From assembly GCA_963969365.1 (NCBI GenBank), contig OZ017756.1, forward strand, positions 124,001 through 188,000: a stretch of 64,000 nucleotides of DNA. Direction: 5' to 3'. Both the position numbers and the translations under genes were made by a program. Under the pieces are notes generated by a model. That model was not told where the DNA came from, did no database searches, and was given only the letters and a program-made list of their open reading frames with translations. Source of the DNA: Asterochloris sp. CNOR1. Lineage: Eukaryota > Chlorophyta > Trebouxiophyceae > Trebouxiales > Trebouxiaceae. Within the stretch, counting starts at the first letter, position 1. Each line of letters begins with the position of its first letter. Shown here piece by piece: positions 5,401 through 63,962 of the stretch.

Positions 5401-8400
5401 ACATGTTGACCATTCAAGGACTGTCAAGGGATTGTGACCACGCACTGCACTTGACTGGTCACAACCTCATGACAATCCATAAATGGTCAACATGTCTGCT
5501 GCCTAGTAGCCTTGCACTGCGCACTTGCCTGGTCACGATCTCATGACAATCCTTAAGTGGTCAGCCTGGCATGCTCGCAGGACACCGGTGAGGCCACTGT
5601 GTCTTGACTGCCATCCCCAGCAGGGGTTGTAAAGCAACCATCCAGGGCCTATGGAAGATACTCCATGGAAATGTTGCTGAGCAGGAGCTGGTCAATGTTG
5701 TCTGTCTGGGTGCTGGCCATCATCAGGAAGGCTTCAGGGGCGATCATGCAGTCCCTCATCAAGGGGAGCAAAGCGCCGCCCTCATTCTGCTTGGCAGGGC
5801 CTCCAGGCTGTCTGTGAGCAGCATCCAGACTACATCTGGCAGCAGAAACCCACGAGGGCTGTTGAGCTAGGGCAGCAGCAGTGTTGACCTGCTACAGACA
5901 TACAATGTCTGGCGACGCCCCCTGCATCGGGACACTGGATCTCCCTGCAGAGGCGCTCTGTGTGCCTGGCATGCTGGTGGTCCACCTGTGACCCTACTTC
6001 CAGCCAGCAGTTGCAAAGCAGCAGATCCAGGGCCCAAGAAGGGGATGACACCCTCTACATGCATGCACCCCCAGGCAGACGACCTTTGCCTTGTCTCAAG
6101 AAGAACTCTGTGCAGGAAGGACAGTAGAAACTGTCATTCCTGCACAGATTCCTGACCACAGATGAAGCCGGAGTCTTCTGGCTTGTTGGGATATGCCTAC
6201 AGCTTTAGCCATGCACCAGCAGGAGACGTTCAGAGGGGCAACATTGTGACACATACTAACAAGGGCCCAAGAAGGGGATGACAGCCTCTACATGCATGTA
6301 CCCCCGGGCAGAAGACCTGTTCCTCGTCTGAAGGGCAATGTTGCGCGGAGACGACAGCCTGGAGATTCACGCGCCCCATTGGGGTGCGGACGGCCCATGG
6401 GGGTGCATGGATACCGAGACTGTCGTGCCCATGAACGGCCCCCTCCAAGCGAGGCAACAGTCGGCTTGTCAAACTATGTCCACAGGAGCAGCAGCAGGGC
6501 GCCTCAGACATGTGGGGCGATACAGTGGGTAAGCACAACTCCCATGGCTGCAGGACTACACCAGCACCAGGCCAGCACGTCAGCAGGGTTGACAACATCC
6601 TGGCAGCTCAAGGTAAGCTCTTGCGGCTTGCAGGCCATGTCTCGCAGCCAGGAACAGTGGCATCGAATGCCATAAGCATGGACAAGGGTTGTTGCGGCCA
6701 TCTGAGTGGCCGCTGCAGTGTGAAGCGGACGTGCAGCTGAGGCCATCTGTGTAAACAGTTTCAGGCAAGCACACGAGCTGGCCGAGCTCAGCATCCTACA
6801 TAGCATGAGGCAGGAGCTGGGACCTAAAGATGTCATGCCATCCTGAGGCCTCAGTGTCTACCTCAGTCAATGTGGGCCAGGACCGGCTGCTGAGGCTTGG
6901 TGGCGGCAGTGGCTGCTGTGGGTACATTGTGCTGCCCCGCAGCTTTTTGTGGCTTCGCCGGCGGAAGCAGGATGGACCCTGATGTATGTTGCTAAGCAGG
7001 AGCTGCTGCTGCTTGACATGTTTCTCAATGTGGGTGCAAGCCATCATCACGAGATGTTCAGGCATGCCTAAGGCAACCCTACTGACCTCACCAACAAGAC
7101 AAGCCCTTGTCCTGCTTGGTGGGGATCCAGGTTGTCTCAGAGCAGCCTCTGAAGTAATGCTGGCAGCAGAATCTAGCATTGAGGCTAGAAGTGGAGGAGG
7201 CTTGGGTGCATCCTAATGCTTTTGCTATACGTGAGTCAGCCTGAGGTGCTCTCTGAAGTGTTGGTAACACAACACATACTGGATTGGGCTGCGCAACATG
7301 GCAGCCATCCAGTGAACTCGACAGGCAAAGCCCCTCAAACACCTTGTGCTAGTGGGTCTTGGTCTGTCAGGGTCACTGGATCTTGATGAGCACACTTGTC
7401 AAAGATGATTGCCGTCATCATTGGGACCAGCGCAAAAACAGCCCTGGAGGGCGACATCAACAAGACCCAGGAATCCCGTTGATCTGCTTGACAGGGCTCC
7501 CAGGCTGGCTTTGTCTGGTCCCGCACTTCATGCCAGCACCTCAGCTTCAGGATCAGGCCAGAGGTGCTGATTTACCAGACAATCGTAATCTAAGCACCTG
7601 CCAGCAAAGAATGCATGCAGCCCTAGCAGCCCGATCGGCAGGCCAGCCTCACCTTCACACGCGGCTCTGCTTGTGCATGGGCAGCATCAGCTCTGTCCGC
7701 GAGGGTCCGGCACATGATCCCAGCTTCCTGCGGCTGCTGGCAGGCGTGTGGCAGCAGCTGGATGCCCATCCAGGCCTGCAGGCATCAAAGCAGCACTGTC
7801 TGCTTGATTGCGGCTTGCTGCAGCTGCTGGCAGGCCTACAGGCAGTAATAGATGCAAGTTGTGCAGCACAGACTAAGTTGCCTTTCACGATGCCCATCAC
7901 AGGCCCACCGCTCAAGTGCTCAGGTGCATAGGAATGCAGCTTTAAGATCTCAGCGCTCAGGGCACTGCTGACATTGAAGTGAAGGCGGAGAACAACAGCT
8001 CTCAGGAGTCCTTGAGCGCTCAGCTGGTGGGGTGCAGCATTGTCAGCTGCAAGGGCACAGCTCAGAATCAAGCCAGAAAGAAGAGCCCTCTCCCTGCCTC
8101 ACCTGCGCAACTTCGTCTGAGGTGGGCGCAACTCCCTGGGGCAGCAGTGAGTTGGCTACCAGACTGCGCACATGCTCTGCCAGCTGGCGCCCATACTTGG
8201 GAGCCCTCAGGAGCACAGGAACTGCCCTCTGGTGTGGCGACCCCTGCAGAGGCAAGGTCCAGGGTCGAGGTTGAGGCCTTTTTGGAAAGCGCCTGATAGC
8301 TCTGGAGCAAGGGAAATCCTCACAGTGAGGCCAAAGCTCCAGGGCATCTCAGACATATCAGTTCTTGAGGTGTATGCCAGGTGAAGCTAGAGCTCCAGTG

Positions 8401-11400
8401 ATCAGAGGTGGGGCAATCGCACAACATCCCGATTCCTCAGACTTTGAGTCCCGCAATGCCCAAGTGCAACACATCAGCAATGCACAGCAGTTTTGCCTGA
8501 GCCGCACATAGCCCACCTGAGCTGCAACCACCTCGCACAGGTCCAGCAGCAGGGGCAGCACCACCTGCTGCAGTGGTTGTCCTGGGTCCAGCACTAGGCT
8601 CCCAGCAGCCCCCAGAGCCTGGGGCCCAAACAGAAGTGCCACTGCAGGGGCTCCCCGCGCGGAGCGCACCAGCCCGTGCAGGAAAGGCACCAGCAGCTGG
8701 GGCGGTGGGGCGGTGAAGGCGGCTGCCCAGGCCACGGGGGCCATGCGCAGGTCCTGCATGTTGTGGTGCCCCCTGACGTCCTGCAGGGCGCGGTGGCCTC
8801 AAGTCAGGATGGCAGACGAGTGCCCAAAGTATGCGATCATGAGGCAAAAGGACATCTGTGCTTTGCGGGAGCCCGAAGCCATGTGCACATTGGATTTTGT
8901 CCAGGGCTGGGGAGCAGTCATTGGCTGAGCAATTCATGTCAGGCATGAGCAACTCTGTCTCTGTCAAACCTGCCGCCCGTGTACCAGCATCATGCAGTGG
9001 GAAGGCTGCATGCTGCTCTGCCTGCAGCTGGGCAGGTGAGATCTTACAACCTGAGAAGCATTGGCCATCAACTCCAAGGGTTGCCCTACATAATCAAAGA
9101 GTTGCCCTGCATGGTGCAAAGCTTGCTGTGCCACATATCGCTCAGTCCTTGCCCACAGAGCTCTAGATCTGGTACCCGCAGGTGCATCTGCAAGAGCGGC
9201 AGGCAATGCAGCATCCTGCCGCACAGGAAACTCCTCTGCAAACTGGGCACATAACTGTATGCCAAGTCTTATAGTACCGTGAGCGCAAAAGTACACAGTG
9301 TAATGCAGTTGGCATTGACATGGCTGTCGAGGCCCCAGCACTGGCTTTGAACAGGGCGCTGCTCATCGTGTGGCCAGTCTTCTCATGTTGCTGTGGGCTG
9401 CCACCTCCGCCATGATAAGGCACAACACTTTGAGGCACAGCGAGAGCAGTTGGTATTGGAGCACCTCTTGAATTCTAGCAGCGCTGACTTCAACGAATGC
9501 TGGCCATCCTTTACACCTCAAACCCAAATGCTGACCTTGCTGTGGGCTGCCACCACCGCCAGCAGAAGGCGCAACACCTCGCGGCACAGCACAGGCTCCT
9601 CAAAGGGCGCTGCCGGTTCCGCTGGTGTCTCCTTGTCGTCAAGGCCGACCCTGAGGGGCTGGACGTCCTCAGTCACAGGCAGCTGGACTGCCGCTGTCTT
9701 GCTGGCTGCGCCCAGCAGGCCGCCAGCTGCTGCTCTGCCGGCAGCCGCCAGGATGGCAGCAGAGTCCTGCACTCGAGCGCCCTCCTCGAAGGCCACGCAA
9801 GCCGTCAGCAGGGCCACTGCGCGTGCAGCAGAGCGCTGGCGCTGGTTTAAAAGGGCCTTGTCTGCCGTGCCTGCAGGCAACATGTGGTGCTGTTGCTTAG
9901 ATAGTGCGACACCCAAAGAAGGGGAGGTTCACATGCAATGCCCAAGACTTGTTTCTTTTGCTGCCTGGCTGGCACCAAGTCTTGCCAGGTAGCAACAGCA
10001 ACAATGACTGAGGCATTGAATGGGTCCCATGCACAGCAAGGGTCTGGGGTTCCACATGCAGGAGGACGGCTGCTGCCTGATAGTCCACAACTTCAACATG
10101 CAGTATTCAGCAAGCACAGCTGGTCATTTAGCTGCGCTGGCAGAACGACTGCAAAGAAATTGCCAGGTGTTGCCAAAGAGGCCATCAGCTTGAAGCCCTG
10201 CCAGGACATGTCTCATACACAGCGCTGACACTCCCATGACAGACACAGCGCTGAGCTGGCACTCAACAACAATCTGCCAGTGGCGGATGTCTGTCAAGGG
10301 AAGGACGCGTTGGGAGCCGAAAGGCATGCCCTGCTCAACAACTTGTATGCCAACAATTTGTATGGCAACAACTTGTATGCCAACAAAGTATCCACACATG
10401 GGCCCTCATTGAAGCACAGAGGTGCAGCCTGATGTAGATCTCGCCCAGCAGAGCTTGCTGAGTGCTAGGCATGGAGGATGCATGTTTGGAAACCAGATGT
10501 CACTGGCTGCTACCCAGTTCTGCAGCCTCCTCCGCAAGACACTCAGTTTTGCAGCCTCCTCACAAAGCTCGCTGCTGTCGCTAATTGTTCATTCAGCCTG
10601 CCACAGGGCAACAGACACAGTTCAATTACTGACAAGTCATGAAGCAGAGGCACATGAGTGCCATCTAAGGCCCCACAGTGCAACACCAGACCCTATGCAG
10701 TTGATGAAGCTCTGCCAGTCAATGACATTCTGCCAGGACATGCCATGCTGGGCACTTCAGGGAATGCAGCAAGTGCACAAGCAAGATTGCACTGGACTCT
10801 CCAGCCCAATACTGCTGGACGTGTTGCATTACCTGACGCAGCCAGGGCAGTAACAGCCTGGCAAACGTATCAAGGCAACTAAGCCCATTCGGACACGTGC
10901 CCCCTGGTGAGCTGTCCCTGTGCCCCCAGCTGTGCCTGCCACCAATGCACCATGTATAGGCCTGAGCCCCCTAGGGCCACTGCAGGGAAGTTGCCGAGCC
11001 CACTCGCTGGAGCTCTTGCACCAGAAGTGGGAAGTCCAAGGCGTGGCCATTGTGGGCAACTGGCGGTGTTGGTAGCCTTCAACGGACGTGCCTTGCCCTT
11101 CCCAATTACGGTAAGAGTCCCGGCGAGTGGGCGTTGCCCCCTGGCCATACACACCTTGTAACACCCCTCTGCAATAGCAATGACTGACAACTGCAAAAGC
11201 TGAGTTCTGCCAGACACAGATGCAGTGCCTTGCTTAAAAGTAGCACCATTGCACATCTGTGCAAAGTGACCAAGCCCTGCTGGCCTGCAGCTGACGCAGT
11301 ACGGTAAGGGTTTGGGTTATAGGGCTTAGGAAGCCGGCCGCTGCCTGACAGTCCACAAGAGGGATGCGCTGTATCCAGCAAGGGCAGGTAGTCATCCAAC

Positions 11401-12247
11401 TGCGTCAGCTGACAAACGCGACAGGCTGGCAGGTGTTGCCAAGAGACGCCCATCAGATCAAGCCCCTCCCATGACAACCTCATGACATCTTTCCCACAGC
11501 ACAGAGCCCCACTCCTGCTGGCGTGCAGTTGGAGGGGAAGGATCAGTTATCAGCCTTGCCAGCTACCACATATTCGAGAAACCACATATTTGAGGTAGCT
11601 GGCAAGGCTGATGTTTGATTCATGTGCCTCCTGGACCTGTCAACAATTGCCAATCCTGTGCGTCCCCTCACAGCATGTAGTGCTGGCCAGGTGGTGCCAC
11701 TGTCCCGCCATGCCTTTGTGTTGTGAGAGTACCAAATGCAACCTGAACCCATCCAGTTGCCACCCAGGACAGGCAGCCCAACGACACCTAGCTGACGTGA
11801 GGTGGCAGGCAGCCCGGCATAGCGGCCCTTGCGACAAACCATTGAAAGTTGCGTGGAAGTCGCGCGCAGCCATGCGCGGTCGCAGCCCAGCTGGCTGCGC
11901 ACGTCATCCAGGTAGAGTTCAAGCAGCAACACCCACGAGCTGCACGCTAAGTTTGACTTATTTGGCGGACACGCACAACATACACAGCAAGCAGATTTGA
12001 CACCAAGTCTTGAAACCATGGCCTTTATGTGCTAGCCATGGTGTGACATCCTCACGCCTCAGCACCTTGCTGGCTACGCAGCGTGAGGTGACAGGCAGCC
12101 CAGCATGGCAGACCTGGCAACAGACCCTTGAACTTTGCATGCATGTCGTGCACAGCCAGCTCGGCTCTCCAGCTGGCTGCGCGCAACATCCAGACAGAGT
12201 TCAAGCAGCAATACCCACAAGCTGCACGCAGGTCTTACTTGTTTGGT

Positions 12248-12283
<36 letters not shown>

Positions 12284-15200
12284 CAAGCAGGTTTCAGACC
12301 AAAGTCATGAAACACGTCCTTTACATGCTCAGCATTATGTGGCATCCTCACGCCTCAGGTGTGGTCAGCATGCAGAGCCACCCCATCCACACAGCTGGCT
12401 ATAATGTTGGAGCTCTGAACAGACGCTTGCTGCCTGTGTGAGGCTCTAAGGTCGATGCCAGCCAGTGAGCATGGGTTGCCTCCTTGGGCATGCAGGTCCT
12501 GAGCGCTACCTGCCACTACACAGACCAAGCTGTCCATGGGCAGGCTGCTCATTGACAGAGATGCTCAAAAAGACGCTTGCTTCTTGTCGGGTTCAGAAGC
12601 CATAGCCAGTCGATGCAAGCACATCATGAGTGAGTTACATCAGGTAGGAACAGACAGCCAGCATATGTTTGTACCTCAATTGCTTGTTGCCAGCCTGTGG
12701 TCAGTAACACAGACCAGGCATGGCCAGGGCAGCTTGGCAACCGGCCGGCAAGCAGCGCTGTGCCACAGACAGATGCTGGCTGTCTGTTGATTAACTCCTA
12801 AAAGCTCACAGGCAAGCGAGGCATGGGATGCTGCTTTTGCACATGCCGGTCCCAGGCGGCATCTGCTGCACAGCCAATCAGGCATGACCAGGACACTTCT
12901 GCTACTCCATCTACTGCTGCTGAGGCGAGTGTGCCCGCGACAACAGGAGGCGGGGCAGTGGACATGCCGGCTTGGAAGGCAGTGGACATTGCACACATGC
13001 TGGCTCGGCGGGAGCTTGTTGGCCCCAGCATCACTGTGCTGGGTCCAACAGCTCAATCAGAAGCCTGCATGCTAGCAGTGCCTACGCTCCAGACTGGCAC
13101 TGACACACCGCCGCTTCACAGGCAGAGGACTCAAGGTGTGTCCTTGACACATGCCACAAAACAGCTTGCTCAACTGAGGTGCGCCATCAGACTCGGTTCA
13201 GAAGTCGAGGCGCTGGCTGAAACTGTGAGCTGTGGGGCCCTGTGATACGCAACCAGAAGGGATCAGAATCAGGCCTCCCAACACATGCATTCATGGTCTC
13301 ATGGTTCCCTGTGCAGCAACACACCACCTGAGCTGCCAATCAAAGACTTTGCCTGTCCCTTACCATCTCATACCACAAGTGTGACACATGGATGCACTTT
13401 CCTTCAAACCTGCCCGCCAGTTCATCTCTGAGATGCAGGCCTTGGGGCCCTGGAAAGGGCAAGGGGAATACTGCAGCACGAGGGCTGCTGCGACCACTCT
13501 TGGTGGAAGCAGCCAGACAATCTCATCATGAGACCAGTCAACCCTTGATGTGCCCTAAAGGGTTCCCAGCAGGGGCCTGCACCCTAGCCCTGCATGCCCC
13601 CCACGCTGCTGTTGGGCATTCCCTGGCAGAAAAGGCATCACTCAATGCTGTCTCTCCCAGGCGCAAGATGCCCCATCATCTCTGTCAATTGTATTTCCAT
13701 GGCCAGGCCAGCTCATGTTTCACATGGGTCATCGGTCTACAAGGATCCAGCGCAGCCTCCCTCTGAGATTGAGTGGCCCATGCACCTTGTTTGCAGCGAA
13801 AGTTGCAGGCAGTGCCAGTCTTGCTGGCGCGCCCCCGACCCCCACCTGTAGCCTCCTCTGTGGCCTCCAGCCGGGAATGTGCCTCCTGTACAACTGCGTG
13901 CCACAGGTCGGCGCTCTTTGGGGCGGCCACGTGCTTCAGCAGCACACGCAGCGTTGCAGCAGCGACTGCAGTGCTGGCCGCATAAATGCTCTCGGCGGAG
14001 AGGTGCGCCAAGGGGGCGTCGCCCTACAGGCAACAGGGCGTGGGTGTGCCAAGAAGCCAAGAGTGCTGGGGCAGTCTCAGCCGCAGCAATGCTGCCCGGA
14101 GAGGTGTGCTGAGGAGAGGTGTGCTGCTGGATTGTCGCATCCCAGGCAGGGGTCACAAGCAATGGATTTGGGGAAGGTCAGACATGCAGCCAGGCGTACA
14201 GGACAGCTGTGCCCACCTTCAAAGAATTGTAACTCTGCAGGAGTGGCAGGGTCCACTGCCAGCGCGTCTGGGGCCCGCCTGTGCAGGCAATCTGTGACAA
14301 TGCTCTTGGCTGATCCTCCGTCAAGACATGCAGCCCATACACAGGACAGCTGCGCTCACCTTGTATAAGTTTCAGGTCTGCAGGAGTGACAGCACCCCCT
14401 GCAGCACCCATCAGCCTCACCTCTGCTGCAATGTCAGGGCAGAAAGCAACCATCAGTCGCACCCCTACTGGTGTGGCAGGGCAGAAAGAAAACCTGCCCG
14501 GGTCAAACAGGATTCCCACATGCAGGGGGGGGTGTGCCCGACCCACCTTGGAGGATCTGAAGCCTGCTGGAGTGACCAGGCCCTCCTGCAGGACCAGTGC
14601 CAGCACCTCTGGTGCCCGGCTGTGCAGTCCGCCAGATGCCCCAGCCACTGCTGCGGCCAGCAGCCTTCCGGCGCCGTCGACATGCTCCGTGTCTGGCTGC
14701 AGAGCGGCGACGGCCACAAGGGCTTTGACCGCTCCCTTGAGGTGGACGCTGGAGGCGTGTCTGCATGGCAGCAGGGGGTCACCGTCGGTGCACTGCTGCA
14801 AGCAGGTATGTGCTGCAAAAGTGCCTGCAGGATCAGCATCCAACAGCAGGGCATTGACCGCTCCCTCTTGCTGGATGCTGGAGGGATGCTTGCAGGGCAC
14901 AGGGGAGAAACATTGATTGAAGGCTCTGTGGGTCCATGATAGCTGCTGCCCAGTCAGCAAAGCAATCCCACATGGCCTTCTGGGCACTGCACTCTGTGCC
15001 CGCATCAGTCATGACCACAAGTCTCGGGACATGCCTGCAGCTTACATGACAAGCTCAATGAGCTCGTGCAGCTAGCATTTGCAGATATGGTGATGTCCTC
15101 AAAATATGGTGGTGACCTAATGTATTTGGCACCTGTGTTGCCCAGCCTCACCTGAGCAGGAACCCAACGGCCTTGGCTGCCAGGCTGCGCACGTGCTTGG

Positions 15201-25356: not shown

Positions 25357-25436
25357 CTGGCGACAGCACCTGGGCACCCCTGACCAGTCGGTCACGTGGG
25401 AGGGAGCCATAAGTGACCTCTTGGTTGGGCTTCAAA

Positions 25437-26510
25437 GCACAGACACAAGGGACACAGAGGACACAACAAAATCACCCCAGCGTACTCACCACAAGCTAAT
25501 GATTCTGCTCCAGGCCCGCCCCCCGCCATGCAAATTGCATGCTTGCCAGTAGCTGAGGCCCTGGCAGGCTGTGTCCTTTGTGTCATTGTCTCTCAATGAG
25601 ATGTGGAGATGTCTTGGGAGGTGGTGGCTTTGGCCAGTCCTCCGCTTCCCAGTTTGGGGTGAGGCCAGCCATGTGCCACCTGGCGTTCCCTGTTCCATCA
25701 GAGCAATACAGCTGCAGCATGTGATGACGAAAGGTATGTTGCCTTCCTGGCCTCTGAGCATCTTGCTGGTCCCCCCTGAGACAACGCTGTGTTGCAGCTG
25801 GAGAGGGATCTCCCTTTGACTGAGCCTTGTTTCAAGCCCCGCAGGCCCTGATCAGGGCCTTGGCCTCCAAGGCTGCCACAGGAACCACCTCAAGTGGCCT
25901 GGTAAATCTGATCATTCGATGAGTGGCACTCAGTCCAGTCTCCGAGATGCTTGAGCAAGCTTGCAAGGGGTGGTTATTGCAAATGCCCTGTAGATCATGT
26001 AGACCAAGTCTGGTATCAACTCAAGTCTGAGAGGACAGGCCTCAAGGGGCTTGCCCTGGTGGGCCATGAGAGCTCTGGTGAGGCATCTCAGCACCGACAC
26101 AAGGGACACACAGGACACAACGAAATCACCCCAGCGCATTGTGCGCAAGTTCATGATACTGCTCCAGGCACCCAGGCAGATTGCATGCTTGCCAGCAGCT
26201 GGGGCCCTGGCAGGCTGTGTCCTTTGTGTTTTTGAGTCTTGCTAAGATTTGGGGATGTGTTGTGGGAGGTGGCACATGGAGGGCCTCACCCCAATCTGGC
26301 AAGGGCAGGATTGGCCAAAGCCACCTTGCTTTCCCCATTTCACCAGGGCAATACTGCTGCAGCATGTGATGACGTCAGGTGTGCTGCCTTCCTGACCTTT
26401 GAGCATCTTGCTAGTCCTCCCTGAGACAATGTTGTGTTACAGCTGGAAAGGGACCTGCCTCTGACTGATCCTTCTTTAATCCTCGCAGGCCCTGATCAGG
26501 GCCTTGGCCT
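25437..26510. repeat. Tandem duplication, ~650 bp unit
   Basis: ACAAGGGACACA-AGGACACAAC and the following sequence at about 25446 recur at about 26099. GCCCTGATCAGGGCCTTGGCCT at about 25846 recurs at about 26491. The offset is 645-653 bases throughout. Minus-strand frames containing WGDFVVSCVSLVSVL occur in both copies (26130 and 25470), so an exon of the downstream kinase-like gene may have been duplicated. The copy at 25930-26154 has the longer frame. Confidence 0.75.
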
Positions 26511-26740
26511 GCAATGCTCTGAGCTTGCCCTTGTGGGAGGCGTGTGTGTCTGTGAAGTGAAAATGCTACACTGCTCAACTCAAGGACATTTGAACATGAC
26601 TTTCAGCAGAGATATTGTGACCTGTGCAGGTAAATGGCAGTAAGAATTGTCAATGCAGATCAGCAAACAATCAAAGGCTTGCTCAGCCGCTCTGCGTACG
26701 CTTGCCAAGCAGCTTGGAGTCATTGCTGTACCTGCTGCAG

Positions 26741-37800: not shown

Positions 37801-39286
37801 TGTACGGTGAGGCGCTTGCAGTGCCCACAGCGGTGCCCTGCCTTGCGCAGACTTCTCCTCTTTGTGCTGCGTGCCTGCATCTTTGAAGCTGTGTCCCTGC
37901 AAAGAATGTGAGCACCCTTTGGCTGCGCAAGCGCCACCACTCTGACATCCTGCTTTCCCAGCACTGACGGCCACGGCAACACGCTGCATATGCTTTCCTG
38001 CCATGCAGGCGCCACCAACCCTGACGGCGTGACTCCCCGACACTATGGCTGGTGGATGGGCGACGACGCAACCATCCTGGGAGCCAACACGGTGTGGATT
38101 CTGGTCATCTTTGGCTGGACGATGGGCATGATGCTGCCCTTCTTCTACGGCCTGAAGCTGTGCGGGTGGCTGCGCGTGTCTGCAGAGGAGGAACTGGTGA
38201 GAGGGCCCTGCCAGCTGTTGACTTGCAGTCTCTGGTGCCTGTGGACGAGGCATGTGTCAGAGAGCCCTGCCAGCTGTTTGCTTGCAGTCTGTGGTGCCTG
38301 TGGAGGACGAAGTGATGTGAGAGGCCTGCCAGCTGTTGCTTGCAGTCTTTGGCTGGACGCTGGTCATAATGCTGCCCCTGTTGTGTGGCTCAAAGCCGGG
38401 CCCAGACCTTTGGACATCTGGGCACTTTGATCCTGCCACCTGGAGATATCCTGCTGCAAAGTAGCAGGGCTTTGAGCAATCATCGGTCGGCCCTGTTCAG
38501 CAGTCCTGCAACACCTGTATTCCACCTGCTGTGCCAGCCTGTGCCCTGCTGCAGAGCGGTGTGAATGGTTCCCAAGCATGGTGGGCACGCCTCACCCCCC
38601 TCTCTGCCTATGCTGCACAAACTGCCTGTTTGACCTGGAGCCTCTTTGTTGCAGGCTGGCGTGGATGTGTCCAAACATGGCGGCCACGCCTACCCTGGCA
38701 TGGAGAAGGTGTATGACCTAGAGGTGGCCACCAACGGCATGGGCGACACCCTGCCGTCCCACAAGATGCGGGACTCTGACGACTCCAACAAGGGAGCTCC
38801 CAATGACTTACAGCTCAGGGTGAGCTGGTGTTGGCTGTGACGTTGTGTGCCTGAGTGTGTGTGCGAGGCTGCAAGGCCTGGCCTGAGATTTGGGTTACAA
38901 AGCGGAAGCGTGAGCTGTGAGTGTCATCAGCCAATGCACAAGAAAAGAGTGATGCCAATGCTGCTTGTGCAGCGCCTTTCAGTAGACTTGCACTCAGAAG
39001 GGGACAGGACACATGTCAGCTGCAAGTGCTCTGCCTCTGCTGTGCTCAAGTGGTGATGCCAGAGTATCTGGCATGTATGTGAGCATGTAATTTCGAGGAA
39101 TCAGTTCCCCTGTAAACTTCCCACCAGTCTTCTAGTCTTTCAGGCGTCCCTGTTCCAGCTGTTGACCTGTCACTCACTGCACCTTGCCTGCTGCAGGTGC
39201 GAGACTTAGAGGCCCAGCTAAAGCAGGTGCTGGCTCACCAAAGCAACTCTACAGAGCAGACCCCATTGAACACTACAGTGGTCTGA
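31858..39286 (+). CDS. AMT1: AMT-type ammonium transporter, 545 aa
   Basis: Plasma-membrane ammonium uptake channel/transporter of the Amt/Mep/Rh superfamily. Sixteen exons splice into one frame: 31858-31925, 32157-32204, 32318-32354, 32470-32520, 32994-33039, 33267-33329, 33461-33612, 34130-34307, 34621-34730, 35533-35604, 36192-36336, 37132-37277, 37728-37806, 38009-38196, 38655-38819 and 39197-39286 (1638 nt). Intron 6 uses a GC donor (TCAG|GCAAGC). Family landmarks are DVCAGGIGYYIFGWAFAYGD, GNPFIGSQMFALSG, the first pore His (H205 in GAVHMVGG), GFYGFNPGT, and the second pore His (H374 in VHGMGGALGVWW). The cytosolic tail has GVDVSKHGGHAYP, where Ser467 replaces the regulatory Thr of plant AMT1 tails. 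The N-terminus is short and starts at the first ATG of its frame. Confidence 0.96.
33740..34129 (+). repeat. Degenerate copies of AMT exon 8 start in intron 7
   Basis: CTGCAGATGTATG at about 33856, followed by GCCCAGCCACTGGGTGTCAG near 33901, mimics the real exon 8 edge CTGCAG|ATGTACG with CTCAGCCACTGGGTG. Weaker copies (CGCAGATGGGTCCTG) follow near 33985. The frames are broken. Confidence 0.65.
35278..35525 (+). repeat. Minisatellite in AMT intron 9, ~46-52 bp unit, five to six copies
   Basis: The unit TGCTGGCTGACTGAGGCC, then CCT(C/T)CTTTGCC and TGCATCACATG, repeats in tandem up to the acceptor of exon 10. Unit length varies by about 3-6 bases. No coding sense is apparent. Confidence 0.9.
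38197..38400 (+). repeat. Tandem copies of the exon 14 edge in AMT intron 14
   Basis: GCCCTGCCAGCTGTT(G)-CTTGCAGTCT recurs three times. The last copy continues into TTTGGCTGGACGCTGG and ATAATGCTGCCC, a degenerate copy of exon 14 (IFGWTMGMMLP). Confidence 0.75.
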
Positions 39287-40639: not shown

Positions 40640-43600
40640 AGTCAGCAGCAATACAAGAGGAGTGGTAAGGAGCCAAAACGTTTCACGCCAGCACCTGGTC
40701 AGATTGGGAACCTGGCATCTGCGGCCTTTCCCTTCCTTGTCAGGTCAGTGGCGTCCATTGTACTGTTCAGCATGACAGTAGCATGTGAGCAGGGTAGCAG
40801 GGAGTCATGCTCTGCACAAGTAAGGCAGGCGGCAGCGACTCACACCAAGTCACGCCTGCACGCCTGCACAGCAGTAAGGGTCTGCACATATCCTGGTTGA
40901 GGCGGGCAGCAGTATCCTACAAGTACAAGTGAGGGGGTCAGGGCCAGTGGCCCTGCACGGAGGCACAGCAATATTGCGTGGTTGCCTGCAAGAAGCAGGG
41001 CTGCCCCAGCCTGGAGGCACAACCACGTCTGCACGCCGCACATGGCCCGCACTTGTGTCCAGCACAGCAACGCCTGCATGTGACTGATAGCCTTGAAGGA
41101 CAGCAACACTTGCAGATTGCATGTGGAAGATGGGGCTGCCTTTTTAAGTAGGGACAGCATTGCCTGCGCATCACCTACAGGAGGCAGGGCTGCGCAGCAT
41201 GGAAGCACAGCGATGCCTGCTCATGTTACACAGACTTAATGCGACTGTGCCAATGACCTCAATCTGCGTGCAGGCAGCAGGGCCGCTCAGCTAGTAGCAG
41301 GAAGAAGGCAATGCAGACGCAGCATGCAAGACACACAGAAACAAGGCTCTGTAGTCCTGGCTTGCACTGCCACAATGGTCTCATGCCTGCGGCATACCTG
41401 CAGGCTGGGCTCTGGTGGCTTTGCTAGCGGCTACAGCAGCAAGCTGACAAGAAAAGATGATAGCTACGCAGTCCTCAAAGTTGGGGGCTGGCAGGTGAGG
41501 ACCTGCATGATTCAGTCTGCTCAGGTTAGGCACGGCTGATTTGTACGTCCTGTCCTGAAAGATGGGACTGGCAGGCTCTTGTCTGCGGCGCTTGACGTCC
41601 AATGCCTGGCATACTCAGGCAGCACATGTTACGCACGCAGCGTGCCGGTGCTGTGGCAGCGCTGAACTTCATGTCAGACTGACAGACATCCGTTGCAATG
41701 GTGCCCTGCCGTGCCACACCTGCCAGTGCATGGAATACCCAGGCCGCACAGGCTAAGAGCAGCGTGCTAGCTTTGCGGCAGCACAGTACCTCATGTCAGA
41801 CTGCCAGGCAGGCAGCGGCTCCGTGGCAATGATGCATTGCCCTGCCACGCCTGCCGTTGCATGGCATACACAGGCATCACAGGCTGGAAGCAGCGCATCC
41901 ATGAGTGCTGCCCTGGGCTGCAGGTGAAGGAGACCAGCCGTGTGGGCAGCTTCAAGCGGCCCCAGAAGCCCATCGAGCTTTACGAGTATGAGACCTGCCC
42001 ATTCTGCCGGCGGGTGAGCAGGCCAGCAGGGCAGGGCTGTCTTGTCTTGCGCCCAGTGCTTGGCTGTGCGACATGCATGCAGTGTAAGGCTGTGTTGTCC
42101 TGGCGACTAGTGCTGGCCTGTGCGCCATGTGGCACACTCTATCGTTGGAGGGGCCCGAGTCTGGGCGGTACTAGTGTCTACTCTGCGTGCGGTGAGGTTC
42201 GATGCTGTGCAGGCCGTTCACCTCCTGGGAAGCCCAGCGCTTGTTGTTGGTGGGTGGTGAATACCAGGCTGGACATCATAGTGATCCCACTACACCTGGC
42301 TCTTGGTGGTGTAAGCCCACAAAGCTGCTTGAGCCAGAGGCAGCCACAGCGACTGCCAGGAAACACTGTCCATGTCGACCTGCTGCTTGGCCGTGCTGCA
42401 CCTTTGCTGAGCAGTGGCAGTGCTGGACCTGCAGAAACAGGGAGAAACACCCTGGGCTCTGCAATCCAGAGAGGTTCAGGCAGCCCCATAGTCTTACAAA
42501 GCCTACGCCCTTCCTACAATCAGCTTGCCTGTTTGATGTCGCAGATCGACAATCCTGTTGCAGTGCTGCACATCCAGGGGCAAGCTTGCCCCTTGGTCTT
42601 GCAGGTCAGGGAGTTTGCTGCAGCTAAGGCAGCCGCCACACAGGCATGTCTGCATCCAGCATCGCCAGACTCTGCCTTGCTGGTGCTGCAGGTCCGTGAA
42701 GCTGTCGCAGTGCTGGACCTGGAGGTGCTGTACCGCCCCTGCCCAGCAAATGGACCCATGTGGCGAGCCAAAGCACGCGAGATGGGTGGGAAGGCTTCCT
42801 TTCCCTTCATGTATGACCCCAACACAGGTATGCCCTTGAACTTGAAGTTCCAGTCCATCTGAGGCATCCCAGTCAGCCCTTGAATCGAAAGCAATCAATC
42901 AATTCGTTTGCTACGCATGCAAAGCACTTGCGTGCGAAGCATCACTGGCAACAAATTGCTTCAGCAAGGCCATTCATCATGTGTGGTCACCAGCTGGCTC
43001 CAGATCAGCAGGGTTGGTACAGCTGCGCAACAGTGAGTCAGGCAACAGGCAGGCAGGCATTTATTCAAAGATGTCCTTTCTGTCGCTTGGGGCACTCCTG
43101 CCAGCATGTTTTGAGACAGGGGCTGCTGCCCAGACTGGTTCCTTGTCCACCCAGCCCTTATGCAGCCAGGCAGCTGCGCGTGTCCCTTTGCAGGCATTCT
43201 AATGCTTCACCGCAAACTGTATGGGGCAGGGAGTGCTGTGCGTTCGGTGAAGCCAGCTTTGTCATTGCCCACTTGTCAGCAAAGCATGGCCTTGCGTGGG
43301 GAGCAAGTGGGTGAGAGGCGTCATCACTGCATCTGGAGGCACTCAGATGCCTCAGGGCCACCTTGTTTGGGTGCTGGGCAGCCATCTGCCACTCTGTGTG
43401 ACGTTGCAGCCAAGGAGAGGTCCAAGCCATCTAAAGCATATCTGCATGCAGTTCAGAGCCTGACTCTGTCCATTTGGCGGACACGCAGGGACCGCAGAAG
43501 GCTGCAGGCTGGCCATTCAGCTGCAGTACACCAGCGTTAGTGCTCTGTTTGTCAAGAAGCGGTGGGTGCCTGCACGCACACATTGTAAGGGGCAGCAAGA

Positions 43601-46195
43601 TGGTAACAGCTGGGTCACCAGCACTTGTTGTTCAGCAAACGCTGCTTGTGTAAGCAGGCACCCCTCAGTGCAAGTCTGTAAGCTTTTACGAGGCATGGCA
43701 TTGGCGCCTGACCTGTGTCAATGGATTGCTGCATGTGCTTGCAGAAACCCAGATGTATGAGTCAGGCAATATCATCAAGTACCTGTTTGAGAACTATTCG
43801 GATGGGCAGACCAAGCCGCCGTGGGGCCTGATGCTGGGCCCCCTCACCGCCATCAGCTGCACTCTGGGCATGCTGCCGCGGGTGAGGCTGCAGCCTCATC
43901 CCAATGCTGTGTCATTGGGCTCTTGGCTGCACCAAAGCTGGGCCCCCTGAGCGTCATTGGCTCCATGCTGAGCATGCTACCACTGGTGAGCCTGCCGCCC
44001 TGGCCTGATGCTGTGTTGTGGGCCTCTCGACTGCACTCTAAAGGTGAGTCTGCAGGCCTGCACCAATGCTGGGCCCCTGAGTGTCATCAGCTGCATACTG
44101 GGCCTGCTTCTGCGGGTGAGCTTGCCGCTCTTTCCTGGGTCTGATGCTGTGTCGAGGGCCTCCTGGCTGCACCCTACAGGTGAGGCTGCAGCCCTGGGCA
44201 CCCTGAGTGAGTTCACAGCCATCTCTTGATGCTGTGGCTGTGGGCTGTGAGCTGCATGCTGGGGATGCTGACAGGGGTAGGCCTGTTAGTGGCGAGTGTG
44301 TCAAGGGCCTCTTTGGGGATGCTGCAGAGATGAGCCTGCAAGTTCAACTCAATGCTGGGTTCTTGGGCTTTGGGCCACACGCTGCCTGTCAGCCTGCAGC
44401 CCTCTTCTGGAACTGTGGTAAGGACTTCTTGGGGCAAGCTGCTTTGGGCCGGCCTGCAGCGCTGGGTTGATGCTCTGTTCTGGCTGTTTTGGTCATGCTG
44501 CTGGGGTGTAACCCCCTTCAGTCTCCATGTTGTGCTCTCGGGCTCTTGGCCACACGCTGCGTGTCAGCCTGCAGCCCTCTCCTGATACTGTGGTGGGGGT
44601 GGTCAAGGGGCGTGCTTCAGGGGGTGAGCCTGCAGCCCTTGGTCAATGCTGTGTTGTTGCCTTTCTGGGCATGCTGCCGGGGTCAGCCTGCACTTCGCTT
44701 TTACTGCTGTGGTGTGGGCCTCTAGGCTGCACACTGTAGGTTAGCCTGCAGCCCAGATGTGATGCTATCCTGACGGCCTCCCTGGACTTGCTGTCAGGGC
44801 TAGCCTGCAGTCCTGTCCTGATGCTGGATTGTAATGCTTGTAGCCGCACGTTGCAATCTGGCCTGCAGCCCACATATGATGCTGCATTGATGGACATGCT
44901 GCCAGGGCTGGCCTGCACTCTTCCCTCAATGTCATGGTGTGGGGCCCTGGGGCTGCATTCTGCGAGTTGGCCTGCAACCCTTGTTCGATGCTGTTGTAGA
45001 TCTCTGTGGGTATGCTGCTGCAAATGAGTCTGTCGCCCGGTTGCCATGCGGTGTGTGGCCTCTCAGAATTTTAGGGGAGCTCAGAGTAGCACAGCCAGGG
45101 ACACGCCTTGATCTCACAGATCCCTGCAGAAGCTTGACAAACATGGCATGCTCAAAAGGCGCAGGCAGAGAGGCTACCCGAGACTTGTAGACTTGCCGTG
45201 CAAGCCCCCAGCAAGGCATTTGTCCAAGACCTGTGGAAATCTGCTGATCCCTGGTGCTTTGCTGCAGGGCAGGAAGGGGGGCATGTACTCCAAGGCCCGC
45301 CAGCCACAGACGCCTCTCATCCTGTGGTCCTATGAGGTGGGCTGCTGGTTTGCTGCTTGCCTGGTGTCAGGCATGATGTCAGGCATGATGCCTGAAGTGA
45401 AACGCTGTGGAACACTGCATAAAGGCTGCTGAAGGTTGCCTTCAAAACTGTGCCGGCCTATGATCTGGCCAGAGATGGGCGCCCACATGTTGTTCATGCA
45501 CTTGCCATGTCAGGAGCGTTTTGTCCATCTGCCTTGCTTCTCCATTGCACCGGCCTTGTCAGGTGCACTTTGTCCTCTGCCTTGCGTCAAGCAGATGTCA
45601 CCCATGCTTGAGGTGGCCCGCGAAACACAGAACGGCTGCTCCTGCCCATGACTGGCATGGGCACACAGATGACACCACCCTCATGTTCATGCAGGCCAGC
45701 CCTTTCTGCAAGGTGGTGAGAGAGGTGCTGTGCGAGCTGGAGCTGCCCTTTGTGCAGCAAACAGTGTCGAGGGGCAGCCCGCGCCGCCAAGAACTTTATG
45801 ACCAGGAAGGCCATTTTCAGGTGGGCTGTGCAGCGCTACCGGTGGTCTTTCTGTTTTGACTGCCGGCTCAGACTGTAGCTGCACAGGGTCTAGCACACAC
45901 AAGCTGGTGTTCACAAGTGGTTGCTTGTATGCAGGTGCCCTTCTTGCAGGACCCCAACACAGGCGCCAGCATGTTTGAGAGTGCTGACATCATGCAGTGA
46001 GTCCCAGCTTGCTTTGCCGGCCGCACACTTTGCACACTGTCAGGCAGGCAGGCTGCTTGCTTGTAGTTGCTTGCTGCTCATTGGCAGCCCAGGGCCCATC
46101 TCAAGAATTTTTGCACTCTGAGAACACCAAGAAGGCAGGCACCCACAAGCACAGCTGTTGTCTACAGGTATCTGCGAGACACCTACCAGCTATGA
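40640..46195 (+). CDS. Plastid-type protein with two GST N-terminal (thioredoxin-fold) domains, 5' end missing
   Basis: Plus-strand exons: 40640-40743 (KEPKRFTPAPGQIG), 41404-41494 (LGSGGFASGYSSKL), 41924-42013 (IELYEYETCPFCRR), 42692-42827 (VREAVAVLDLEVLYRPCP), 43745-43881 (MYESGNIIKYLFENY), 45268-45336, 45695-45820 (ASPFCKVVREVLCELELP), 45935-45996 (VPFLQDPNTGASMFESADI) and 46168-46195 (YLRDTYQL, stop). All phases join, giving 280 residues plus an unseen N-terminus. The architecture matches plant chloroplast proteins with tandem GST-N domains, the first with a CPFC active site and the second with SPFC, each followed by DPNTG...(Y/F)ES. A plastid redox or conjugation role is inferred. The last three exons are repeated as relics in the array downstream. 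Confidence 0.88.
42300..42691 (+). repeat. Degenerate exon-edge copies before the third-domain exon of the GST-like gene
   Basis: CTTGCAGGTCAGGGAGTTTGCTGCAG (42599) and the segment CAGTGGCAGTGCTGGACCTGCAG (42415) resemble the acceptor and first codons of the real exon at 42692 (CTGCAG|GTCCGTGAAGCTGTC, then CAGTGCTGGACCTGGAG). They have no usable frame. Confidence 0.6.
43882..45000 (+). repeat. Array of about ten degenerate copies of an exon 3' end plus donor
   Basis: The exon at 43745-43881 ends CTGGGCATGCTGCCGCGG|GTGAGG. The following 1.1 kb repeats this edge and its flank at about 90-130 base intervals: CTGGGCCCCTGAG(C/T)GTCAT, then GCTGCATACTGGGCCTGCT, then GGTGAGC(C/T)TGC, then TGATGCTGTG(T)... 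Many copies retain a GGTGAG donor. The intron has evidently grown by serial tandem duplication of its own 5' splice site. Confidence 0.85.
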
Positions 46196-55326: not shown

Positions 55327-55329
55327 GCT

Positions 55330-59825: not shown

Positions 59826-62800
59826 ATGCTCCTTGCAGGCTCCATTAGTCTGCCAAATGTTTTGCTGGCTCAATCCACCCTTCAGGTGGCGGCAGGTGAC
59901 TACTTGACAGTCCAGCAATGGCCTTGCAGCTGCCCAACTGTCCTCAACTTCACCCTTGAACTGCGTCACATCACCCGTCTGCGCTCATGCAGGTCGCAGG
60001 CGGCCTTATGCTGGGCGCCCAGCTGCGTTGCATTGCCCTGCAGCTGCCATCCTTCTCATGTCAAGTCCCGCGCCTGCGCCGCTGCAGGAGGCCCCACTGA
60101 GCGTCCAGCTGCGCCGCAGCCCCCTGAAATCATGCTTCCTGTTGGCTCTGGTGACAGGCAACCTCTCCTGGTGCCTTACCTATGCACTTTGCGCTGCAGG
60201 TGGCGGCTGGCCACAGTCTGAGCACTCAGCCTCGTCACCCGTCTGCGCTCCTGCAGGTCGCTGAGGGCGGCCATGTACACGCACAGCTGCATTGTGTTGC
60301 CCTGCAGCTGCCATGCTTGCCCACTGCAGGTCCCTGATGCGCACCCCACCAAGAGGCAGCTGATAAGGCACGTGGCGCAGAGCTGCAACGCACCCCGTGC
60401 CATCATGCTTCCTGTTGCCTGACCTGTGCATGTCGCCCCGCAGGTGGCGGCTGGCCACACTCTGAGCGCTCAGCTGCGGCGCACCGCCCTGCAGCTGCCC
60501 CGCTTCCTGTCCTTGGCGCCAGCCCGGCACCGCTTTGGCCCCGTCATGATGGGAGCAGCCTACTTCCAGAGCAGAGCAGCTGTGGAGGCTCGGGTCTCTG
60601 GCAGTGCCCACCTGCGGCAGCTCGACACAGAGCTGCGCGAGGTGCGCTGGGCTGAGAAGATTGCAGCCAGACATCTATGTTGTTTCAATGTCACAGCGAG
60701 ACCTACATTTGTAAGAGAGGTTGGCACGGCCACACGGCTGTGTTGAAGCCTGCTGTCAGGCAATGCGCCCTCTGTAAGCAGGAGGGTCACATGCACGTCT
60801 GGTGTTGGGGGTGTTCTGTCCCAGCTGTCAAAGGACAGGAGGTTCATGCGAGGGACACAGTGTGCAGCGCGGCACCCCACAAACAAGTCTTGAACTTTGG
60901 ATGTGCCTGTCAGTGTTCACGACTCCATTTGTGCTCAGTGGGCTGGAGGCCCCTCCTGGCGCAGCTGTGGCAGCTGTTTGCTGACGTGGCTGACCACTGA
61001 GCTGCTTGACTGACTTCATTGACATGAAGGCTCCCTCAAGGGGCACTGTGTGGAGTGCAGCACTACAAGTTGCATGACTACCATGCTGTCTGTGCTTGCA
61101 GGGCTTTGGACCCCTCCTGGCACAGCTGTGGCAGCTGTTTGCGGGCATGGCTGACTACTGCAGCCAGCTGAAGAGGCTGCTGCAGGGACGGGCAAGGCCG
61201 CCGGCCCAGCAGGCAGCACCCAGCAGTGCCAACGCAACAGGCAGTAAGGCTGTGCCTCTGCCTGCAACCCCGCTGGGCCAGGCGCTCCAAGTGAGACACA
61301 TGCCATGCAGTAGGATGTTGCATCTTGGCGGTATGCGCTGCACCACCAGTAGCGAGTCCCTGCAGGCAGAACACATGCCACAGCATGGCGTCTGCAAGCA
61401 GTGTTAGTGAAGGGCGGGCCCCTGCTGTACCACCACTCAGCCTGGCAACGCAGGTCAAACAGAGAAAGTTTGCCACGCCTTCAGTGGGAGAGCCCAGTGC
61501 AAGGCACGCAAGGGGCAATGTTGCTCGATTTTGTGCCTGATCTGCTGCATATCAGCGAGGTGATGGGGCTGCTGGTGGAGGCTGCTGCTCACTGGGTGGC
61601 CTGCAGCTGCTGCACGACCAGCACCTGCCAGCAACTGCATGTGATCGGCGTATTGTGCCTGCAGCGCCTCGGGCATCGCCTCACCTCACATCCGCTTCCC
61701 TGCAAAGCGGCAAGCTGCGGAGGCTGCTGATGGGGACCATGGGCCCTGGGGGTTCCTGCAGCTGCTGCTGACCACACAATGCTAATTTAGCTTTACACAC
61801 ACTGCTTGCACTCTCGACTCACACCCACTGCTCCCAGCAGCTAAGCCTTCAGCATGTTGACAAAGCTCAGTGATATTCTGAGTTGGGGCAAGTCTGCCAA
61901 CACTATTGCCTACCGCCCTGCAGAGCAACAAGGCACTGAGGCTGCAGGTGGAGACTGTGGCTGGCCTGCATCTGTCCGCGACAATACGGGATTGGATCTT
62001 CATTGCTGCTGGACTAGGCACTCCGCATAAGCTCCACACCCACCGCTATGCAGAGCAGCAAGACGCTGAGGCTGCTGGCGGAGTCTGTCGCTCTCTGGGG
62101 GGCCTTGCTGCTGCTTCTGGACCAGCACCTGCCAGCAGCGGCGCGTGAGAGGGCGGTGGTGGCTCACGTGCGTGCAGTGTTGGCCTCCACCACTGAAGGG
62201 TCAGATGCAGCGCAGCGGGTGGAGCGCGGCCTGCCGGGGGTGCTGGCCCTCATACGGGGCTTGCCGGGGCAGGGAGCAAAAGGCGGTGCCTCAGCAGGTA
62301 AGTGATCTGCATGTCAGCTGGCAGCCTGCGCTGATGATGAGAGGGCGCTGCCTCAGGAGGTCAGCCGATTTGCTGACCAGCATCTGCATGTCAGCTGGCA
62401 GCCTGCGCTGATGATGAGAGGGCGCTGCCTCAGGAGGTCAGCCGATATGCTGACCAGCATCTGCATGTCAGCTGGCAGCCTGCGATGATGATGAGGAGGC
62501 GCTGCCTCAGGAGGTCAGCCGGTGTGCTGACCAGCATCTGTATGTCAGCTGGCAGCCTGCACAGATGATGAGAGGGTGCTGCCTCAGGAGGTCAGCTGAT
62601 AGCATCTGCTTGTCACCTGGCAGCCTTGCAGATGACGAGAGGGCCTCAGGGCACACAGAGCTGCTCCGGCTGTTTCTGCCTGGCCCACGCTGGGGTGCGA
62701 CCAGGCCAAAACGGCTCCATCAGACAAGAGAGCCTTCCCTGCTTTCAGGCCAGGCAGACCAGCTGTTTGCGCGCGCTTCTCTGCCGCGCCCTGTCCTCCT

Positions 62801-63962
62801 GGCCGTCCTGCGCGGCCTGGCAGCGTCAGAGGCCCCGCAGCCGGCCCACCCAAACCCCCTAAACCCTAGCGCCCCACAGGGAGCGCTGGACATGGCGGAG
62901 GCCGCCCTGCAGGGGCAGGTGCACCTGCTGCTGCACTTTGTGCCTGAGGTGCTGCACCGGGACCAGCAGCTTATGCAGGTGGGAGCCATGTGCAGTGTCA
63001 CTGACACTGAATCCCTCAAGCAACCAGCTATACACGCGTATTGAGGCAGCCTGCTTGCTGGAAACATTGATGAGGCTGAGCTGGTCCCCATGTATGAGAG
63101 TTATTGGCCCTGAGCACATGATGGCCCCCTGCCACACCATCCCGCTGATGCGAAGACATCTTTCAAACTGCATGTTCTGTTGCAGGACATAGCTGGCCGC
63201 TTCTTTGCCAGCAGCTGGGTGGTCGAGTGGGCCCCTGGGCACTATGCAGATGTGGCACACTCCTGGGAAAGCTATCGTGCTGCCCGCGGAGCCATGGCAG
63301 CCGTTCAAAGTGTCCAGCAGGTGAGGTTTAGTGTGTCCACTCTTCTCAGCTGCTCACTTGTGCTGGCCAAGTCTCCATGCTGGGCTCAACAGGTCCCGAG
63401 CCGTGGCAGCACCGCAGGGTGTCCAGCAGGTCAATCATTGTGTGACCAGCGTGTCACACGGGTTGATAGGCTTGGATGATTACCTGAGCCTGATTAGCTG
63501 AGCTTGGAGTGTAGTTTCAGGAGACAGAGCTCTTGGTATATGGCTGGCCAAGACTGCTTCTGGTCTGCTGCTGTTGGCGCAGCAGGATCAATATGCCCCT
63601 CTTGCAGGGCACCTCTCCTGCAGCTCGCTGCTGTAGCGTGGCGGCTGCAGCTTCAGGACCCTTCCCTGCCACCCTATTATAGCCGACAGCACAATGCAGC
63701 AGCTGCGCAGCTGATCTTCCCTTTTTGGCATGCATGATATTTCAGGACAAGCTGTGCTTATAGTGCCTTTTCGTCAGGCTTGCAAACATGCAGAGCTGTG
63801 TAGTGCTTGCTTAAAGTTCAGGCTTGCAGATAATGCAGATCTTTGTCAAACAGCACAGTTTTCGTTCTGCAGGCCAAGGATACAGCAGCCCGCCACATGA
63901 CCGAGCTGCGCCAGCTGCAGCAGCAGTGCCAGGCTCTGCTGCTGCATGAGAGCGCCTTGCAG
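59826..63962 (+). CDS. WASHC5: WASH complex subunit strumpellin, N-terminal part (runs off the right end)
   Basis: Strumpellin is the scaffold of the endosomal WASH complex that activates Arp2/3. Plus-strand exons: 59826-59885 (ATG, inferred), 60444-60641 (GHTLSAQLRRTALQLPRFL, then FGPVMMGAAYFQ), 61102-61290 (FGPLLAQLWQLFAGMADYC), 62054-62297 (TLRLLAESVALWGALLLLLD), 62632-62978 (DQLFARASLPRPVLLAVLRG, then LLLHFVPEVLHRDQQLMQ), 63186-63320 (AGRFFASSWVVEWAPGHYAD, then WESYRAARGAM) and 63873-63962. All phases agree. The sequence follows strumpellin block by block: LLxEAxxLxGxxLLxxDQ; ILYFEPxxLHxxQxxM; VDKYFxxNWVI...W-x-YKAAKTA. About 421 of ~1160 residues are present. The first exon is the weakest call because decayed repeats precede exon 2. 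Confidence 0.87.
59880..60440 (+). repeat. Degenerate copies of strumpellin exon 2 in intron 1
   Basis: The real exon edge CAGGTGGCGGCTGGCCACACTCTGAGCGCTCAG (60441) is echoed by GTGGCGGCAGGTGACTAC (59886), GGTGGCGGCTGGCCACAGTCTGAGC (60199), and two more diverged copies with GCAGCTGC(G/A)TTG(C/T)(A/G)TTGCCCTGCAGCTGCCA (about 59990-60050 and 60256-60312) that mimic AQL--TALQLP. At least four copies. Confidence 0.8.
60940..61000 (+). repeat. Copy of strumpellin exon 3 in intron 2
   Basis: GGGCTGGAGGCCCCTCCTGGCGC, then AGCTGTGGCAGCTGTTTGCTGACGTGGCTGACCA, closely matches the true exon at 61102 (GGCTTTGGACCCCTCCTGGCAC, then AGCTGTGGCAGCTGTTTGC). A frameshift removes the coding sense. Confidence 0.85.
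61515..61980 (+). repeat. Copies of strumpellin exons 4 and 5 in intron 3
   Basis: GGCAATGTTGCTCGATTTTGTGCCTGATCTGCTGCA (about 61515) resembles exon 5 (CACCTGCTGCTGCACTTTGTGCCTGAGGTGCTGCA at 62921). CTGCTGCACGACCAGCACCTGCCAGCA (about 61606) resembles exon 4 (DQHLPAA). TGCAGAGCAACAAGGCACTGAGGCTGC (61919) resembles the exon 4 start at 62051. An exon 5 fragment upstream of exon 4 is out of order. Confidence 0.7.
62298..62631 (+). repeat. 75-bp tandem repeat built from the acceptor and start of strumpellin exon 5
   Basis: The unit (C)ATGTCAGCTGGCAGCCTGCG and TGATGATGAGAGGGCGCTGC, then CTCAGGAGGTCAGCCG-TGCTGACCAGCATCTG, occurs at about 62313, 62387, 62464 and 62540. The fifth unit, at about 62608, is the real boundary (CTGGCAGCCTTGCAG|ATGACGAGAGGGCC). 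The entire intron is this array. Confidence 0.92.

Follow-up and report, generated by a model that had tools for sequence, protein, structure and literature searches.

Several described systems resemble the introns reported here. Break repair yields small tandem duplications, which have been described as the most frequent class of short insertion (<100 bp) in the human genome (PMC8355091). Newly gained introns of Daphnia carry internal direct repeats, read as the result of repeated staggered breaks that lengthen introns, together with 4-12 bp repeats of the adjacent exon end (PMC4202315). In intron gain of the Rogers or AGGT type the duplicated segment can cross an exon-intron boundary (PMC4974935, PMC2891723), and in tandem exon duplication an exon-like copy lies beside its exon in the same gene (PMC9013439; Exonize, PMC12343006). 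Here we describe local, decayed copies of exon ends in the introns of the green alga Asterochloris sp. CNOR1, found in a 64-kb stretch of contig OZ017756.1 (positions 124,001 to 188,000; the window). The copies are probably the product of background short-range tandem duplication, seen through selection on exons that keeps one partner nearly unchanged (the exon clamp). Like break-repair duplications they are in place, same-strand, short and derived from unrelated sequences; they are also old and decayed, and breakpoints and microhomology are unreadable. Unlike the Daphnia repeats they are tens of bp long, at offsets mostly of 65-300 bp, in established-looking introns. Unlike Rogers or AGGT gain, donor-acceptor register was missing in 518 of 519 introns and duplication probably lengthens introns, and unlike tandem exon duplicates the copies take in only part of an exon, at its end, have decayed and mostly do not keep the frame. 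The literature already covers tandem duplication, the growth of introns through it and the rare gain of introns by the same route; none of the literature matches listed, mostly available as listing entries only, describes it for a green alga. What this analysis adds is the extent of the process within a single genome, the bias that the clamp introduces and the scarcity of young copies.

The window belongs to a 56.4-Mb nuclear genome, whose 18 large contigs (1.99-4.47 Mb) were taken for chromosomes. The test set comprised 41 sequences (313,762 bases, ∼0.6% of the genome): the window, 18 ten-kb stretches (positions 500001-510000 of each large contig; random stretches) and loci with Pfam hits (ABC transporter, GST). 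Genes were modelled ab initio, without RNA, using a self-trained two-strand hidden Markov model with codon, intron and splice-site models. This gave 746 exons of mean length 116 bp, introns with a median of 222 bp and a splice consensus of CAG/GTGAG (donor) and CTGCAG/G (acceptor). Each of 24 Pfam-hit exons was covered 62-100% by the models, the same 24 having seeded the codon model and anchored rounds 1-4 of ten. All ten events whose two copies both lie in exons, a set that includes some short coding repeats, had offsets divisible by 3; this indicates that the frame is selected and speaks in favour of the gene models. The gene array at 45.5-59.86 kb of the window and the overlapping loci L032 and L042 were left out of the counts, as were exons with a coding score <5 or a length <25 bp and introns <80 bp, giving 687 tests on 463 of 626 introns. 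Event counts omit low-complexity segments; simulation comparisons and the age count omit offsets <40 bp.

Each intron was scored against the exons on either side of it and against mispaired exons. A score of ≥20 was reached in 47 of the 687 pairs, ≥25 in 26 and ≥30 in 13, against mispaired expectations of 2.7, 0.2 and 0.05, respectively. Scores of ≥20 were obtained in 15/185 tests at Pfam-hit loci (0.35 expected), 22/417 in random stretches (1.25 expected) and 10/69 in the five named genes of the window (0.95 expected); none of the other 16 window tests reached this score. Same-gene exons three or more introns away scored in 0.5% of 2,570 comparisons, against 6.8% for adjacent exons. The initial annotation had proposed that introns grow by duplication of exon edges through a genome-wide process, in nearly every multi-exon gene. 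Within the sample the genome-wide part was borne out, random stretches included, with similarity far above the mispaired level. "Nearly every" was too much: copies were detected in 47 of the 463 introns and in only 26 of the 59 predicted gene pieces in which three or more introns were tested. Introns holding a copy had a median length of 402 bp (n = 47) against 237 bp for 511 others of ≥80 bp, 95 of which lay outside the copy test. The difference is no more than consistent with growth, since a copy also finds more room in a longer intron; existing introns are probably made longer by the process.

Duplication was local and same-strand, as defines short-range tandem duplication. Exon copies were found in 0/687 tests when the exons were reverse-complemented, against 47/687 on the same strand. 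Self-comparison of the window gave 51 same-strand pairs <3 kb apart, of which 7 are copies belonging to the tandem gene array, and all 20 pairs farther apart fell in that array (45.5-59.85 kb). Recurrence of 11-mers was 19-23 per million at 11-150 bp and 1.3-1.7 beyond 600 bp; it was still 19.5 per million at 100-150 bp, then 2.8 at 150-200 bp and 5 at 200-400 bp. This measure counts pairs and can be inflated by a few arrays. Event offsets in random stretches (n = 78) were <150 bp in 53 cases, 150-174 bp in none and 175-299 bp in 20. The match spanned ≥70% of the offset in 45/140 matches; the modelled spacing of exon copies (below) fits small gaps better. Opposite-strand 11-mers were in excess at 600-4000 bp, which is probably explained by a 100% identical inverted repeat of ≥1.2 kb in one sampled stretch (L010, 7057-8264 and 8793-10000, reaching the stretch end).

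Chance similarity or an assembly artefact is barely credible as the source of the copies, since dinucleotide shuffles of 24 ten-kb stretches gave 0 pairs at E ≤ 1e-3 and the copies are not near-identical (10/144 events at ≥90% identity). At the same cut-off 24 pairings of unrelated stretches gave 21 matches, 19 of them between two window pieces sharing the gene array, which leaves 2 matches in 23 pairings outside it. On that figure an introner element or transposon, with related copies at many unrelated loci, was rejected for the sampled stretches. Tandem Repeats Finder gave 18 rows over the 64 kb, 16 of 1.9-3.9 copies and the others of 5.8 copies and a 17-unit CA run; a minisatellite of many near-identical head-to-tail units was rejected on these mostly low copy numbers.

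Copies at exon edges are thus real, and the edges themselves are not clearly their source. Noncoding pseudo-exons of matched length scored ≥20 in 6.16% of 3,425 overlapping draws, against 6.84% for exons, and ≥30 in 2.9% against 1.9%. Duplicates covered 9.1% of 795 junctions, 10.0% of 5,579 points in intron interiors, 3.9% of 2,555 in exon interiors and 4.7% of 1,586 intergenic points; outside the window the values were 8.1%, 6.3%, 3.3% and 2.5%. That exon edges are the preferred source, through breaks linked to transcription or splicing or through copying that stops at the edge, and that introns grow mainly so, is unlikely given the equal rates in pseudo-exons and intron interiors. Donor and acceptor sides were also alike (26 and 21). 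In its favour, 61/165 independent events held a junction (37%, where rigid shifts gave 23%; 0/400 shifts as high), with 31/78 in random stretches against 23.5% and 20/48 at Pfam-hit loci against 25.5%. The window alone gave no significant excess (10/39 against 21%), and BLAST pairs held a junction in 76/189 cases against 60.4 expected (p = 0.06). The adjacent exon edge was reached by 38/47 exon copies, against 6.5 under even placement; pseudo-exon copies reached an arbitrary edge in 89/191 cases, a comparison that favours exon edges as a source. Most of the junction excess is reproduced by the clamp together with old age, and the following account of background duplication is preferred.

DNA was duplicated repeatedly, in place or very near, on the same strand and mostly at offsets <150 bp. 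Units duplicated within exons occur only in frame, and the two copies of a noncoding duplicate have both decayed. Where a unit spans a junction, the spliced copy would be kept by selection while the surplus copy turned into intron and decayed. One frozen partner would roughly halve divergence, so that duplicates at exon edges could be recognised for about double the time of noncoding ones and would dominate what a reader sees. Selection on the spliced copy predicts a higher identity in the exon part, and this was observed: 0.761 (39 cases) against 0.683 for pseudo-exons picked alike (72 cases; p = 9e-6). Identity over the rest of the unit was 0.584 against 0.540 (p = 0.10), with 0.514 in random introns.

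The clamp was simulated with exons and splice sites frozen and a divergence of 0.2-0.5 per site. Event shares were 0.56 mixed, 0.42 noncoding and 0.28 junction-holding, against 0.54, 0.39 and 0.40 observed (139 events), and the identity distribution was fitted (Kolmogorov-Smirnov, KS, p = 0.6). Simulations with frozen exons and ages starting from zero gave too few exon-containing events and left a larger junction excess; with age conditioning and frozen splice sites the excess shrank and some remained. The simulations thus suggest that the junction excess comes mostly from near-unchanged exons keeping old matches visible, and that the clamp is probably the main cause of the edge bias.

A number of points weigh against this account. 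The simulated age range was set to match identity, leaving the class shares as the actual test, and the indel rate was also our choice. The junction share partly fails that test, at 0.40 against a modelled 0.28-0.32. Alignments ended ≤3 bp from the exon edge in 9/47 cases against 2-6% modelled, an observation that favours edges as a source. The edge was crossed by >5 bp in 66% of copies against 86-94% modelled, and reached in 81% against 90-97%. Exon copies reached the edge more often than pseudo-exon copies, and junctions outside the window were slightly more covered than intron interiors. Only 14/47 exon-copy pairs abutted or overlapped, and the exon share of the offset was 0.46, against 0.59-0.68 for a strict head-to-tail model; a model with copies placed 0-100 bp away gave 0.44-0.48. 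Apart from this share, edge effects beyond the model remain. Finally, the gene models were built without RNA and some decayed copies were called exons.

Once formed, the copies decay as plain intron. Mismatches were found at 151/827, 146/832 and 188/825 of first, second and third codon positions (18.3, 17.5 and 22.8%; third-position excess p = 0.014) and 72/77 indels break the frame. The splice dinucleotide was retained in 22/37 edge-reaching copies, close to a neutral level put at ∼58% (0.76 squared). The decoy splice sites proposed earlier therefore exist at about the level that neutral decay would leave. The splice site was not confirmed as a regular part of the copy, the edge being crossed by >5 bp in 31/47 matches. 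Alternative exons, also proposed, found little support. Retained dinucleotides and the calling of some copies as exons by the gene finder (for example 44056-44115) speak for live alternative, mutually exclusive or protein-repeat exons; the nearly flat codon positions, the out-of-frame indels and the neutral retention make these extremely improbable. Tandem or mutually exclusive exon duplication, in which frame and coding constraint are kept, was rejected on the same indels and codon positions. Repeat-induced mutation was also rejected as the cause of decay, with C>T at 0.109 and T>C at 0.096 and only CpG raised (22/97 against 59/649). In introns of the 41 sequences the acceptor-like word TGCAGG was depleted on the sense strand (231 occurrences, against 354 antisense), and TTGCAG was balanced (184 against 190). 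Selection against decoy sites is not claimed, in view of the TTGCAG balance and the near-neutral dinucleotides of the copies.

RNA-templated or transposon-like insertion of exon pieces could account for the minority of copies that stop at the exon edge. It is scarcely tenable, as no copy of a spliced junction was found among 37 tested and no element was common to the sampled stretches. Continuation into the next exon scored ≥12 in 4/37 (0.5 expected); by their coordinates three enter the next exon itself across a short intron and one lies in another local duplication.

The suggestion that the process is a source of new introns was reduced to one candidate. Donor and acceptor edges were alike in register in 1/519 introns, thresholds from ≥8 to ≥16 all counting the same one. 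Creation of introns by tandem duplication, of the AGGT type or by boundary-crossing gain, is known from potato RdRp (PMC4974935) and Drosophila (PMC2891723), and is highly unlikely to account for the introns here. The candidate is a predicted 99-bp intron (L015, 5832-5930) with a score of 17, none being expected at 16 or more. Tandem duplication may have made it; this is doubtful, since the predicted donor is GC and the gene model is itself doubtful.

The duplications are old. Copy identity mostly ranged from 69 to 89% (10-90% range), and the events at ≥90% identity made up 6.9% of the total, against 31-32% for steady duplication; a steady-process age model was rejected (KS p = 1.6e-9 and 2.7e-9). 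Loss of unstable young repeats would not explain the shortage, because survival should only fall with age. Either duplication has slowed in relation to substitution, as it seems, or the clock is too simple, and the process does not look to be at full strength today. As to molecular origin, fill-in of staggered or paired-nick breaks followed by end joining appears the most likely, with about even confidence by analogy with the break-repair and Daphnia cases, and slippage or unequal exchange would add units to arrays. A spike of intron gain in time is reported for Daphnia (PMC4202315). A comparable past wave tied to splice junctions, in which splicing-linked ancestral breaks enlarged about a tenth of introns in one period, is a quite improbable alternative. 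If true, it would account for copies that favour exon edges beyond selection and age, for those that stop exactly at the edge and for the few young ones.

Such introns hold a datable, polarised record of their lengthening, with the exon as nearly unchanged reference and the copy as the decayed one, from which a single genome yields both neutral mutation spectra and a history of duplication. Intron-exon similarity overstates the involvement of exons, as old duplicates remain recognisable where one partner is an exon. That the process slowed in this lineage is a testable claim, given how few young copies there are.

Sites in the window are collected in Table 1. Local decayed same-strand copies of exon ends had been noted at eight sites, of which seven were clear and one, at 42.4 kb, was weak. 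Predicted genes matched Utp20 (E = 2.7e-4), SF3A2 (5.5e-83), ammonium transporter (AMT; 1.8e-33), Strumpellin PF10266 (2.1e-33) and GST_N_3 (3.8e-7), and in the gene array Cyt-b5 (1.7e-16). The UTP20 piece matched no Pfam family, spliced model included, and the strumpellin piece had no PDB match. Pfam scans of read-through frames in four parts of the window gave only AMT exons above the cut-off, so that spliced models were required to identify the genes; these scans took in the UTP20 region on both strands and the SF3A2, AMT and GST regions, with strumpellin and part of the array covered on the wrong strand only.

Table 1. Duplications in the window, with positions counted from its first nucleotide
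Feature	Position	Strand	Description
UTP20-like gene	9388..9590	-	End of exon 9536-9870 (9537-9590) and intronic copy 9388-9441, offset 149
UTP20-like gene	14180..14905	-	Pairs 14180-14291 ~ 14324-14432 and 14694-14777 ~ 14822-14905, around exon 14547-14760
SF3A2	30120..30873	-	Exon 30286-30441, both ends copied into flanking introns
AMT	33847..34184	+	Copy 33847-33917 of acceptor and head of exon 34130-34307
AMT	38108..38401	+	38108-38163 ~ 38346-38401 and 38176-38235 ~ 38294-38352; source exon 38009-38196
GST-like gene	42386..42724	+	Weak pair 42386-42434 ~ 42676-42724 over acceptor of exon 42692-42827
GST-like gene	43831..45064	+	Decayed tandem array from end and donor of exon 43745-43881; periods 104 and 136 at start
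Strumpellin gene	59960..60506	+	Duplications, offsets 264 and 451, around exon 60444-60641
Strumpellin gene	60930..61160	+	Head of exon 61102-61290 copied, offset 161
Strumpellin gene	61545..62148	+	Head of exon 62054-62297 copied, offsets 373 and 503
Strumpellin gene	62282..62650	+	77-bp unit, 3.9 copies at 62305-62601, in intron after exon 62054-62297
Mostly noncoding DNA	390..2127	.	Duplication, offset 761, 71%
Intron-internal tandem duplication	11796..12358	.	Offset 286, 75%; remote from all predicted exons
Intergenic duplication (between predicted genes)	25406..26518	.	Offset 657, 77%

The clearest case is in the GST-like gene, where the end of exon 43745-43881 with its donor occurs at eight places including the original, reaching 44931. 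The seven copies score 18.5-38, and 200 random windows of the same length scored 19 at best (mean 13.7), which makes the weakest one or two copies uncertain. At 42.4 kb the single pair (49 bp, 74%, E ≤ 0.05) may be due to chance; the threshold used for it gave 15 matches in 19 unrelated pairings, against 189 local matches in the 41 sequences. In SF3A2 an array of 3.3 units of 108 bp (30417-30769) begins in the exon and continues in decayed form to the end of the feature, and the other end of the exon is copied at 30120-30170. The first AMT copy is 78% identical with its acceptor intact. At 9.4 kb the UTP20 copy is 54 bp long and 85% identical, with the splice site outside it; near 14 kb the first pair is 70% identical and the end of the exon recurs within its intron. 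Several pairs lie at 59.9-62.6 kb in strumpellin, the exon edge being clearly involved in three, and the 77-bp array is intronic, starting 8 bp past the exon end. The duplication in mostly noncoding DNA is the same process with little exon involved.

The array of cytochrome b5-like genes occupies 45500-59860 of the window, with a copy-to-copy identity of ∼62-76%; it showed no duplication at an offset <1.9 kb in the window self-comparison. Long imperfect hairpins cluster at 256-17660 of the window (for example 5383-5513, 12649-12788 and 15725-15877); the first 20 kb holds 18 of them, and the random stretches (180 kb) hold 10. Nine of 14 checked lay wholly within predicted introns, and three that were folded had predicted RNA energies of −72 to −92 kcal/mol. 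On a 43-kb contig (G000:C19, 10167-10916) an uninterrupted frame of 713 aa gave a full-length protein kinase match (E = 1.5e-68), unlike the other protein kinase matches listed, which were partial and exon by exon.

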